DNA of 22,313 nucleotides, taken from a virus. Shown here in pieces: positions 3,897 through 6,689 of this stretch (its first letter is position 1; each line of letters opens with the position of its first letter). The notes beneath the pieces are model-generated. The model was not told where the DNA came from. It saw only the letters and a list, made by a program, of their open reading frames with translations, and did not search any database. The stretch is taken from the IMG/VR virus record IMGVR_UViG_3300006086_000039, positions 1-22,313 of that record; one strand, given 5' to 3'. Made by a program: the position numbers and the translations under genes.

Positions 3897-3929
3897 AAGC
3901 GCCTCGGGCTTCGGCTCGGGGCGCTTTTG
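3897..3929 (+). terminator. Rho-independent terminator with UUCG tetraloop
   Basis: AAGCGCCTCGGGC pairs with GCTCGGGGCGCTT around a TTCG loop closed by C-G, giving a continuous 13-bp stem (two G-T pairs) followed by TTGCGTTT. It lies 60 nt after the stop at 3837 and ends the rightward tail/protease unit. The T-tract is short but the stem is very stable. Confidence 0.8.
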
Positions 3930-3933
3930 CGTT

Positions 3934-4010
3934 TGGCGGCGATAGCGGGGATCGAACCCGCTGCCTCTCCGTTATATGCCGCTCACTGCATGCCCGCGCC
4001 GTCCGGTGGC
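3934..4010 (-). other. tRNA 3'-half-like element (degenerate tRNA or att-site candidate)
   Basis: On the minus strand, 3961-3945 gives a perfect T-arm (GCGGG, loop TTCGATC, CCCGC), followed by a 7-nt acceptor-like TATCGCC, one discriminator base and CCA (3936-3934). Upstream there is an ATGC/GCAT D-arm-like stem, but only about 13 nt remain for the anticodon arm and no matching 5' acceptor GGCGATA lies in the right orientation, so it is not a complete tRNA. GGCGATAG occurs as a direct repeat on the plus strand at 3938 and 4008. Phage attachment sites often copy a host tRNA 3' end, which would fit, but no integrase gene is in the window. Confidence 0.4.
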
Positions 4011-4031
4011 GATAGGATAGCACGATTGGGG

Positions 4032-4060
4032 TTGACACACAACCACAAATCCGCGAATAT
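4032..4060 (+). promoter_or_regulatory. Sigma70-type promoter for leaderless HTH mRNA
   Basis: A perfect -35 TTGACA (4032-4037), 17-nt spacer and a weak -10 GAATAT (4055-4060) place the expected transcription start at or within a base of ATG 4067. No Shine-Dalgarno sequence fits between, so the HTH mRNA would be leaderless, as for phage lambda cI from its maintenance promoter. Confidence 0.6.
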
Positions 4061-4066
4061 GTAATC

Positions 4067-4276
4067 ATGACGCTCGAACAGGTTCTCGAAAAACTACGCT
4101 TAGAGGTCAAACAGGCCGGGTCTCAGGCCAAATGGGCGCAGGGGAAGCGTGTCAGCCGAAGTGCCGTGAGCTTCGCGCTCACAAGTAAGCGTGATCCTGA
4201 CCCGGCCGTGATTTCTGCCCTGGGACTGCGCCGGGTCATCAGTTACGAACCGATCTCGCCAGGAGCCTGGCCATGA
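4067..4276 (+). CDS. Small HTH DNA-binding regulator
   Basis: A 69-aa protein. Residues 17-58 (AGSQAKWAQGKRVSRSAVSF, then ALTSKRDPDPAVISALGLRR) follow the pattern of a short helix-turn-helix family common in alphaproteobacteria and their phages: GSQxxWAxxxxVSxxxVSxxLxxxREPxPxILxALGLRRV. It likely binds operator DNA as a dimer. It is the first gene after the terminator and appears to be read from a leaderless promoter. The stop overlaps the ATG of the next gene, so it heads the operon with the Fic gene. Whether it represses or activates cannot be read. Confidence 0.75.
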   Translation: MTLEQVLEKLRLEVKQAGSQAKWAQGKRVSRSAVSFALTSKRDPDPAVISALGLRRVISYEPISPGAWP

Positions 4277-4491
4277 GTGACCTGACCGGCGCAATCTTCG
4301 GGGCATCCGTCCTTCTCGGCGCTCCGGGTTCTCGATATCACATGGTCAATGCGAATGCTCAAGTCGAACAAAATAGTTTCTGGGCGTCCTGGATGGCCAA
4401 CACGCTCGCTACCCCACCGAAGCCGCCCGGCATTCACTGGACCAAGACCGGCGGGAAGACGTGGCGCGTTGAGATCGTGAGAGCGGCATGA
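4273..4491 (+). CDS. Unknown small protein upstream of Fic
   Basis: A 72-aa protein starting in the ATGA overlap with the HTH gene and ending in an overlap with the Fic gene. It begins MSDLTGAIFGASVLLGAPGS and ends KTGGKTWRVEIVRAA. The N-terminal 18 residues are mildly hydrophobic but too short and polar for a clear membrane helix. No motif is recognised. Its position could suggest a Fic partner, but the Fic protein carries its own inhibitory motif, so I do not call it an antitoxin. Confidence 0.65.
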   Translation: MSDLTGAIFGASVLLGAPGSRYHMVNANAQVEQNSFWASWMANTLATPPKPPGIHWTKTGGKTWRVEIVRAA

Positions 4492-5042
4492 TCAGCATTC
4501 AAGAGTTTCTCCGGGAAAGCCTTATGATCGAAGGCATTCGCCGCGAGCCAACGGATGCGGAGATCGAGGCGACATGCGCGTTTCTCGGCTCCGATTCATC
4601 TGCGGAAGATGTGATCGCACTTCAGAAAGTTTATGCGCCCGGCAAGCCATTGCGGGATAAAATCGGAATGAACGTCCAGGTCGGCGGCTATGTCGCGCCG
4701 CCGGGGAATCCGAATATGCGAGAGGAACTTGAGCACGTTCTGAATAACGCTGACCCTTGGAGTCTGCATGTTGCCTTTGAAATGTTACATCCATTCATGG
4801 ACGGTAATGGCCGCACAGGACGTGCGGTCTGGCTTTGGGTAATGTTCCAAAAACCCTTCCCCGCGAGCCCTTTGGCTATCGGGTTCTTGCACCGCTTTTA
4901 CTATCAGACGTTAGCGGCCCAGTCTGATATAGAGGTCAGAAAAACGCGGCGGGTCGAGCCTGATTCGCCCCCGGCCGAAGAAGACGGGCACCGGGCGTTG
5001 TGGGAACGGTCTGATCCACCCGAACCGAAGGAGGCGGCATGA
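4488..5042 (+). CDS. Fic-domain protein (putative AMP/NMP transferase), class II-like
   Basis: A 184-aa protein with the full Fic motif HPFMDGNGRTGR at residues 101-112 (catalytic His101, Asp105, Arg109, Arg112). Upstream is the conserved VQVGGYVAPPGNP flap-like region, and downstream FLHRFYYQTL matches the usual YY element. The N-terminus has S11-LMI-E15-G16, fitting the inhibitory (S/T)xxxE(G/N) helix whose Glu blocks ATP gamma-phosphate binding in class II enzymes. The E15-H101 spacing of 86 residues is shorter than usual in the family, so this is a compact version. Fic enzymes transfer AMP or another nucleotide to Ser, Thr or Tyr of target proteins. The target is unknown. Both ends overlap neighbouring genes (ATGA). 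Confidence 0.85.
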   Translation: MISIQEFLRESLMIEGIRREPTDAEIEATCAFLGSDSSAEDVIALQKVYAPGKPLRDKIGMNVQVGGYVAPPGNPNMREELEHVLNNADPWSLHVAFEMLHPFMDGNGRTGRAVWLWVMFQKPFPASPLAIGFLHRFYYQTLAAQSDIEVRKTRRVEPDSPPAEEDGHRALWERSDPPEPKEAA

Positions 5043-5173
5043 TCCCCCTCCTCGCCGGTCTCTACCTGCTAATCTCCTGGCCCTGGCGGCACCGGCATGA
5101 GACGCCGTGGTTCGCACCGGAAGCGCGAGTGTGGCAGAACATTCACGGATTTATATCGAAGGACACACTATGA
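5039..5173 (+). CDS. Small membrane protein (44 aa)
   Basis: The frame starts in an ATGA overlap with the Fic stop, preceded by GGAGG, and ends in an ATGA overlap with the next gene. The N-terminal stretch MIPLLAGLYLLISWPW is a short hydrophobic helix followed by basic WRHRHE and a polar tail. Coupling on both sides makes it credible. Function is not recognised. Confidence 0.6.
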   Translation: MIPLLAGLYLLISWPWRHRHETPWFAPEARVWQNIHGFISKDTL

Positions 5174-5508
5174 GCGCGACCGTCCCAGGTTGGGGTCTTC
5201 CCGAGGTGCCTAAGATGATGTGGAGCACAAATACAAATGGTGCGATGTGTATATTGCGGGATGGTAAATGGGAGACGCCGGAAACACCAGATGTAGCTTC
5301 GGTGTCATTACCTTTAGATGAAACCGGGCTGGTGTTCTGTGCTATCGCGATGACCTTGAAAGCCGCATTCGAGGGCCGTCCATTGGCGGGTCGGAATCGT
5401 CCGAGACTGGATGTGGACAAGCTGGCTCTTGATCTGACCAGGAAGATTCGCGAAGCAATCCAGGCGGAAAACGGAATCCGAGAAATCTGCACAAGGAAAA
5501 TCTCATGA
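5170..5508 (+). CDS. Unknown phage protein, 112 aa
   Basis: The start is ATG 5170, preceded by GAAGGACACACT, one of the recurring AAGGACACAC-type ribosome binding sites of this genome. Any earlier in-frame GTG is ignored for that reason. The protein is soluble with two Cys in the middle and ends in an amphipathic helical segment (KLALDLTRKIREAIQAENGI). It shares its first codons (ATGAGCGCGACC) with the holin-like gene immediately downstream. No domain is recognised. Confidence 0.7.
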   Translation: MSATVPGWGLPEVPKMMWSTNTNGAMCILRDGKWETPETPDVASVSLPLDETGLVFCAIAMTLKAAFEGRPLAGRNRPRLDVDKLALDLTRKIREAIQAENGIREICTRKIS

Positions 5509-5825
5509 GCGCGACCACCACCCCAACCACCAACACCCTGATCCGTGACGCCCAGGACGGCGTCGATCTCGCCAGTAAGGCCGCCAACAGTCCGGCGCTG
5601 ATGGCGTTCCTCCAGCAGATCGCGGGGACGCAGATCGCCGCCGCGCAGAAGAACCCGCTCGTGAGCCTCGGTGCCGGCGCGCTGGTGTCGGTCGCGGCTT
5701 ATTGGGGCGTCCACATCGACGGGCAGACCTCGACGCTTCTGGCAATCGGCACGGCCATCCTGGCGGGGGACATCTCGCAATGGTTCGCGGCGCGGGCGGC
5801 GGCTCCGGTGGCGGGGGCGAAGTGA
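5505..5825 (+). CDS. Holin-like membrane protein
   Basis: A 106-aa protein with a polar N-terminal 50 residues (AAQKNP) and two hydrophobic stretches, about residues 51-68 (LVSLGAGALVSVAAYWGV) and 74-92 (TSTLLAIGTAILAGDISQWF), ending in an Ala-rich tail. Size, helix pattern and location just before the endolysin fit a phage holin, which forms holes in the inner membrane to release the endolysin. Start and stop overlap the neighbours. Holins are too diverse for certainty from sequence alone. Confidence 0.65.
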   Translation: MSATTTPTTNTLIRDAQDGVDLASKAANSPALMAFLQQIAGTQIAAAQKNPLVSLGAGALVSVAAYWGVHIDGQTSTLLAIGTAILAGDISQWFAARAAAPVAGAK

Positions 5826-6077: not shown

Positions 6078-6689
6078 ATGGCCGCCGACATCACTGCCCA
6101 GGTAACCGTCCCGATGGTCGCCAGACTGTTTCCCTCCACGCCGCAAGCCAACATCGCCGCGAACCTGCCGCACGTCCTGGCCGCGCTGTCGGCGCGGCAG
6201 ATCGGGGATCACGACATGGTGTGCGTGGCGCTGGCGAACATCGCGGCCGAGACGGCATCATGGGAGCCGGTCAAGGAAGGTGCGCCGAGCGAATGGAACA
6301 CATCGCCGGGCGGTCAGCACTTCGATCTCTATGACAACCGGCAGGACCTCGGAAATGGCCCCCACGACGGCCCGTTGTTTCCAGGCCGGGGCTTCATCCA
6401 ATTAACCGGGAGGTCGAACTACGCCAAATACGGTCCCGAGGTCGGCGCCGATCTGATCGCTGATCCCGATCTGGCCTGTGATCCGGTCATCGCGGCAAAA
6501 TTGCTGGCGGCGTTCCTGGCGGACAAGGAGCCGCGGTTCCGTGTCCTGCTCGCGGCGGACAATCTGGATTATGTGGCGCTCCGGCGGCTCGTGAACGGCG
6601 GGATCAATGGAATGACCGCGTTTCAGGCGACGTTCGACGCGGCGGATGATGCGGTGCCGATGGCAATGACTGGAGGAGATGCGTCATGA
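6078..6689 (+). CDS. Endolysin, GH19 chitinase-like muramidase fold
   Basis: A 203-aa soluble protein. It has the glycoside-hydrolase-19-type lysozyme features: ANIAAETASW with Glu58 as probable general acid, a second acidic residue Glu67, and the signature GRGFIQLTGRSNYAKYG (residues 103-119). Phage enzymes of this family cut the peptidoglycan glycan strand. There is no signal peptide or membrane anchor, so release would depend on the holin-like gene just upstream. AAAGGA precedes the ATG. Length is typical for single-domain phage GH19 endolysins. The stop overlaps the next gene. Confidence 0.9.
   Translation: MAADITAQVTVPMVARLFPSTPQANIAANLPHVLAALSARQIGDHDMVCVALANIAAETASWEPVKEGAPSEWNTSPGGQHFDLYDNRQDLGNGPHDGPLFPGRGFIQLTGRSNYAKYGPEVGADLIADPDLACDPVIAAKLLAAFLADKEPRFRVLLAADNLDYVALRRLVNGGINGMTAFQATFDAADDAVPMAMTGGDAS

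Follow-up and report, generated by a model that had tools for sequence, protein, structure and literature searches.

The fic gene and its surroundings

The window, that is, the whole 22.3-kb linear IMG/VR virus fragment analysed here, carries a gene for a small Fic protein inside a tightly packed run on the plus strand (Table 1). Six genes occupy 4067 to 5825, each overlapping the next by exactly 4 nt; a putative HTH gene comes first, fic third and a holin-like ORF last. The original prediction placed fic directly behind an HTH gene with a leaderless promoter. The first point is wrong, as the 72-aa ORF intervenes, and the HTH assignment is weak as well; the promoter is unsupported, a consensus scan having shown no sigma-70-type site there. 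A perfect TTGACA is found at 4032-4037, upstream of the putative HTH gene. ARAGORN and Rfam detected neither a tRNA nor a known RNA upstream of the HTH-fic unit, and the operon region has no distant nucleotide match in phage records.

Table 1. Genes, motifs and other features in and around fic, with positions in the window
Feature	Position	Strand	Remark
Terminator-like hairpin upstream of the HTH-fic unit	3897..3926	+	Such sites are no commoner than in shuffles
Small putative HTH-type regulator, first gene of the coupled run	4067..4276	+	Weak PHROG 9103 match (transcriptional repressor, E 0.045); nothing in Pfam
Orphan ORF of 72 aa, ending 4 nt inside fic	4273..4491	+	No relative in viral contigs
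fic, minimal class II Fic protein, 184 aa, ATG start	4488..5042	+	
Inhibitory motif S11-L-M-I-E15-G16, end of helix 4-14 (alpha-inh)	4518..4535	+	Conservation in 102 relatives; register with class II motif
Beta-hairpin flap, codons 55-71; conserved R56, G60, V63, V65, G66, P71	4650..4700	+	Flap role from PMC3667792
Fic motif HPFMDGNGRTGR, codons 101-112; catalytic H101, R109 = R1, R112 = R2	4788..4823	+	
FLHRFYYQTL, codons 133-142, start of last helix	4884..4913	+	YYxxL aligned with YYxxL of cellular Fic
Low-confidence tail, codons 151-184	4938..5039	+	Mostly missing in relatives
ORF of 44 aa, starting on the last 4 nt of fic	5039..5173	+	No conserved counterpart in relatives
112-aa ORF	5170..5508	+	Continues the 4-nt-overlap run towards the endolysin
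Holin-like ORF	5505..5825	+	Weak holin match, E 0.1
GH19-type endolysin, after the coupled run	6078-6689		

Some other features of the window were recorded. The minus strand at 3938-4012, just upstream of the HTH-fic unit, holds a lookalike of a tRNA T-arm (GGATCGAACCCGC on the plus strand). A subtilase, possibly tail-associated, is encoded at 952-2304 (Peptidase_S8, Pfam E 2.2e-8; PHROG protease), and directly ahead of it lies a glycine-rich ORF (158-955). An AAA ATPase at 8197-9177 matches PF00004 with E 1.1e-14 and, more weakly, the PADLOC models TRIP13 (1.5e-8) and IetA (1.9e-7).

Across the contigs of phage relatives there is no conserved neighbour of fic. By PHROGs, replication and nucleotide genes are the commonest named neighbours, and each occurs in no more than two or three members; a place close to the lysis genes, as in the window, is therefore not the rule. 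This bears on the idea of a toxin-antitoxin pair in which Fic would be the toxin and one of the overlapping ORFs, of 72 aa or 44 aa, the antitoxin. The 4-nt overlaps at both ends of fic would suit such a pair, and a 47-aa downstream antitoxin has been reported for SoFic in E. coli (PMC12249575), but neither small ORF is conserved in relatives, and the inhibitory motif resides within the Fic protein and not in its neighbours; we regard this explanation as highly improbable. The lack of conserved neighbours, together with a 72-aa ORF that has no viral relatives, argues against an obligatory antitoxin. Since SoFic is toxic and has a reported small antitoxin, a lineage-specific small partner, either the 44-aa or the 72-aa ORF, is still conceivable.

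Specific candidates of this type were discarded. The 72-aa upstream ORF was dropped as an antitoxin for want of relatives in viral contigs, and the small downstream ORF, considered as an AS1-like antitoxin, since nothing is conserved downstream of fic in the relatives. A class I Fic toxin-antitoxin system of the FicT/VbhT type was rejected on the same absence of a conserved neighbour and of relatives of the 72-aa ORF, and on the location of the motif inside the Fic protein.

Active site, inhibitory motif and their conservation

A target protein that docks on the flap of a class II Fic protein receives AMP from ATP on one of its hydroxyls. Fic domains are known in viruses in general. In the fic protein of the window, the Pfam Fic family PF02661 matches residues 49-117 (E 2.6e-8; 35 bits against a gathering cut-off of 24), and the Fic motif HPFMDGNGRTGR is intact. 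This motif agrees with the HxFx(D/E)GNGRxxR form of AMP-transferring Fic proteins, and the flap residues are conserved too. The (S/T)xxxE(G/N) motif that defines class II is located in helix 4-14, N-terminal to the Fic core and before alpha1. By chance, (S/T)xxxE(G/N) arises anywhere in 13.5% of shuffles of the fic protein and within the first 40 residues in 3.2%, so that SLMIEG in one sequence alone is weak evidence. The N-terminal motif is accepted as real because it is conserved across 102 relatives.

These relatives were collected from viral contigs. A scan with the single protein gave 12 relatives, and a scan with the alignment of those 12 gave 296, of which the best 80 were kept; the resulting alignment, A2, contains 76 sequences, all of which match PF02661 at E<=0.01. 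Invariant or near-invariant positions in A2 are S11, I14, E15, G16, I17, R56, V63, V65, G66, H94 and E98 in the first part of the protein, and H101, P102, D105, N107, G108, R109, G111, R112, W115, F133, Y138, Y139 and L142 in the second. Fully invariant among the 76 are H101, D105, N107, G108, R109, G111, R112 and W115, and E15 is kept in all members except one. The central Fic motif and FLHRFYY served as search patterns, and their conservation is partly by construction; S11, E15 and R112 were outside the patterns used. To avoid a ranking bias towards the N-terminus, a second set of relatives was ranked on the C-terminal halves of divergent members alone, and ranking thus does not explain the conservation of the N-terminal motif. 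The sets together comprise 102 distinct phage relatives: the Ser is present in every one, the Glu in 101 (Asp in the remaining one), and the following Gly/Asn in 92. The original prediction was right both that the active site is complete and that SLMIEG at residues 11-16 fits the inhibitory helix motif, whose register with the class II motif was also recovered by profile alignment.

A few members deviate at single positions. The sole relative with Asp in place of the inhibitory Glu (L042, 4995-5435; SNEIDG) offers a natural test case for that residue. The Fic motif reads DCNGR, with Gly replaced by Cys, in 6 of the 76 (L009, L012, L071, L086, L090 and L094), and L251 has DGDGR; the motif is otherwise intact in each.

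Among isolate phages in the collection searched, a full relative was found only in Roseobacter phage RDJL6. This protein (UFK26723.1) belongs to the same family, with 37% identity and a profile E of 3.9e-47, and keeps SNYIEG and HPFTDGNGRSAR. It is annotated as hypothetical and is surrounded by other small genes, with replication-type genes downstream. PHROGs match the fic protein only via the motif region of longer Fic families, and full-text literature searches returned no paper on the short phage Fic family.

Predicted fold and size of the core

AlphaFold2 modelled the whole protein with a pLDDT of 91.4, and residues 1-150 with a pLDDT of 95.6 and a pTM of 0.90. Helices are predicted at residues 4-14, 23-33, 39-49, 77-85, 90-100, 109-121 and 133-146, and the flap strands near 64-69, so that the elements follow the order helix, two helices, flap, two helices, Fic loop, two helices. 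Glu15 comes immediately after the first helix. Absence of a Fic fold, named in the original prediction as grounds for refuting it, was not seen: the model has a confident Fic-like core, and the best PDB matches found by Foldseek are all Fic proteins (probability 0.98-1.00), the closest being the class II proteins FICD and SoFic. The Foldseek matches have TM-scores of only 0.4-0.56 (0.46-0.56 for the best PDB matches) and E-values of 1e-3 to 1e-2, which indicates a fold that is Fic but drifted, compacted or rearranged. A fold search of BFVD gave weak Fic matches only.

Could this be a decaying or repurposed Fic protein that has lost AMP-transferase activity, and either uses another nucleotide or performs no catalysis? 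The short core, which has the sixth helix as its last, and the moderate TM-scores fit with this, and so does the variation of the motif glycine and the DGDGR of L251. However, none of the catalytic positions varies in the family, divergent as it is, and the flap persists, which speaks for selection on catalysis, and we hold decay to be extremely improbable.

The core is short in a defined way. The gap from Glu15 to His101 is 86 residues in the window protein and 86-104 (median 91) in the family of 102 relatives, against 123-147 in nearly all motif-bearing proteins of a cellular set of 80 Fic proteins from many phyla. This set consists of generic Fic proteins among the matches listed in a profile scan of genome contigs, most of them with the inhibitory motif; the scan used one over-general pattern and has no bearing on the absence of the family from cells. 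The family profile aligns to the cellular class II set in hhalign with a probability of 99.5% and E 2e-22, pairing SLMIEG with SSxIEG, flap with flap and YYQTL with YYxxL. According to this alignment, most of the missing sequence was lost right behind residue 33, where core helix one is joined to core helix two, and a lesser deletion precedes helix 90-100. At the other end, the relatives stop a median of 6 residues past YYQxL, whereas the window protein extends 42 residues, the last part with low confidence. The estimate of a gap about 40 residues shorter than in class II Fic proteins was therefore borne out, and conservation in the family, the profile register and the confident Fic-like model all support the reading as a minimised class II Fic with an intramolecular inhibitory helix. 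It follows that a class II core can dispense with about 30 residues between its first two core helices and with everything after the sixth.

Comparison with known Fic proteins

SoFic (3EQX, 3ZCN, 3ZEC) and human FICD (6I7J, 4U04), the best matches by profile as well as by structure, resemble the window protein in having the N-terminal (S/T)xxxE(G/N) helix, the flap and HPFxDGNGRxxR. A YYxxL in the helix after the Fic motif is likewise common to the cellular class II relatives and the phage protein, and this stretch likely forms the adenine-pocket side. Unlike SoFic and FICD, the window protein has no helix past the sixth and no additional N- or C-terminal domain, and its core measures about 150 aa. 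It may rank among the smallest Fic designs with self-inhibition. The C. difficile Fic CD0569 (4X2C/4X2D/4X2E, where 4X2D is the S31A, E35A mutant) is also a compact class II protein with a single Fic domain and an N-terminal inhibitory motif, but it is cellular and longer (235 aa), with the His about 125 residues after the Glu as estimated from match positions. Class III proteins such as NmFic and EfFIC are small and single-domain as well and possess an autoinhibitory Glu, which in their case is in a C-terminal helix (PMC6408439), whereas that of the phage protein is N-terminal. Doc of phage P1 is another short, phage-borne member of the Fic/Doc family. However, P1 Doc has a degenerate motif and serves as the kinase-like toxin of a toxin-antitoxin module (PMC4454073), while the motif in the window is that of a canonical AMP-transferase.

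Distribution and relation to phage defence

In a phylogeny of short phage Fic proteins, as the original prediction had advised, 77 phage and 80 cellular sequences were compared, and the phage side was split off as one well-separated group by a single long, fully supported branch. Virus records contain the same family with E-values of 1e-47 to 1e-62. No match at E<=1e-20 was found in 385 genomes of the class that includes a Holosporales MAG, nor in 369 genomes of the class that includes Allopusillimonas; these 754 bacterial genomes cover part of two classes, which may not include the true hosts, so the absence is provisional. A plasmid search returned only a Listeria Fic family, covering 40% of the query. 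This distribution suggests a phage-borne lineage.

A tyrosine integrase (PF00589) scores above the cut-off in 13 of 42 contigs of relatives, and some of the carrier phages are probably temperate. Contigs with no integrase match need not come from lytic phages, as many could be fragments; RDJL6 is without a PF00589 match too, though one of its genes is annotated 'integrase'. These contigs are relevant to the proposal that fic is a phage defence gene, a small functional relative of SoFic acting in superinfection exclusion or abortive infection, either in lysogens or against competing phages. Class II SoFic is indeed a toxic, anti-phage abortive-infection protein (PMC12249575), and the PADLOC model for SoFic matches the window protein with E 2.5e-11. 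This match, however, spans just 38 residues around the motif out of the 361 positions of the model, and the SoFic NCBIfam model gives 26.9 bits against a cut-off of 550. Moreover, most contigs, many of them perhaps fragments, gave no PF00589 match, and in the window fic is coupled to genes that run up to the lysis cassette and not to a lysogeny module. A defence role is clearly unlikely on these grounds.

Proposed function

The locus encodes a real, intact and conserved miniature class II Fic protein, which is unusual in its size, in its apparently phage-bound distribution and in a near-invariant brake that comes without a partner gene. Its most probable role, in our judgement, is that of a minimal class II enzyme of the phage that is autoinhibited without an antitoxin and transfers AMP to a protein likely belonging to the host, possibly with deAMPylation as a further activity. 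In class II Fic proteins, the inhibitory Glu and the gamma-phosphate of ATP compete for the second Arg in the motif (PMC3667792; the inhibitory mechanism is also described in PMC6826200). E15 and R112 are both essentially invariant in the phage family and the topology is as in class II Fic, and from this homology we infer a contact between Glu15 and Arg112 at the gamma-phosphate site. Helix 4-14 would present Glu15 to Arg112, ATP would be held in a non-productive pose, and the enzyme would be kept in check with no antitoxin needed. The brake might be released by binding of the target, by a change in oligomeric state or by ions. A target protein would then lie along the flap, and His101 would activate one of its hydroxyls to receive AMP from ATP; the target would likely be a host protein during infection. 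The contact of Glu15 with Arg112 is inferred, as are chemistry, trigger and target; modification of a host target is plausible. The same Glu might also support the reverse reaction. Near-perfect retention of the Glu speaks against an enzyme that is always on; it favours a regulated AMPylase or a combined AMPylase/deAMPylase.

The protein may instead be mainly a deAMPylase, in which the Glu is kept for removal of AMP, for example from targets of a host Fic toxin or defence system, so that fic would be a counter-defence or protective gene. Retention of the Glu in all relatives but one is in line with this, and the Glu of EfFIC is required for deAMPylation (PMC6408439), FICD catalyses both AMPylation and deAMPylation (PMC6826200), and SoFic is an anti-phage system (PMC12249575). 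Nevertheless, simple autoinhibition predicts conservation of the Glu equally well, the sampled generic class II proteins mostly have the motif too, and no host substrate is known. This role is unlikely. About as unlikely is a more novel reading, namely a phage-specific lineage of miniature class II Fic proteins, rarely or never found in bacterial chromosomes, whose AMPylase/deAMPylase activity, made switchable by the near-invariant Glu, would serve during infection to turn a host protein on and off or to undo an AMPylation-based defence of the host.

The miniature design is conserved across at least 100 divergent, mostly uncultivated phages, and it would make a tractable protein with which to identify the host targets that phages AMPylate or deAMPylate. 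Among the close relatives, L017 comes from a viral contig with an identifier (2630968843) that looks isolate-like, and it might give a cultivable carrier or a host.
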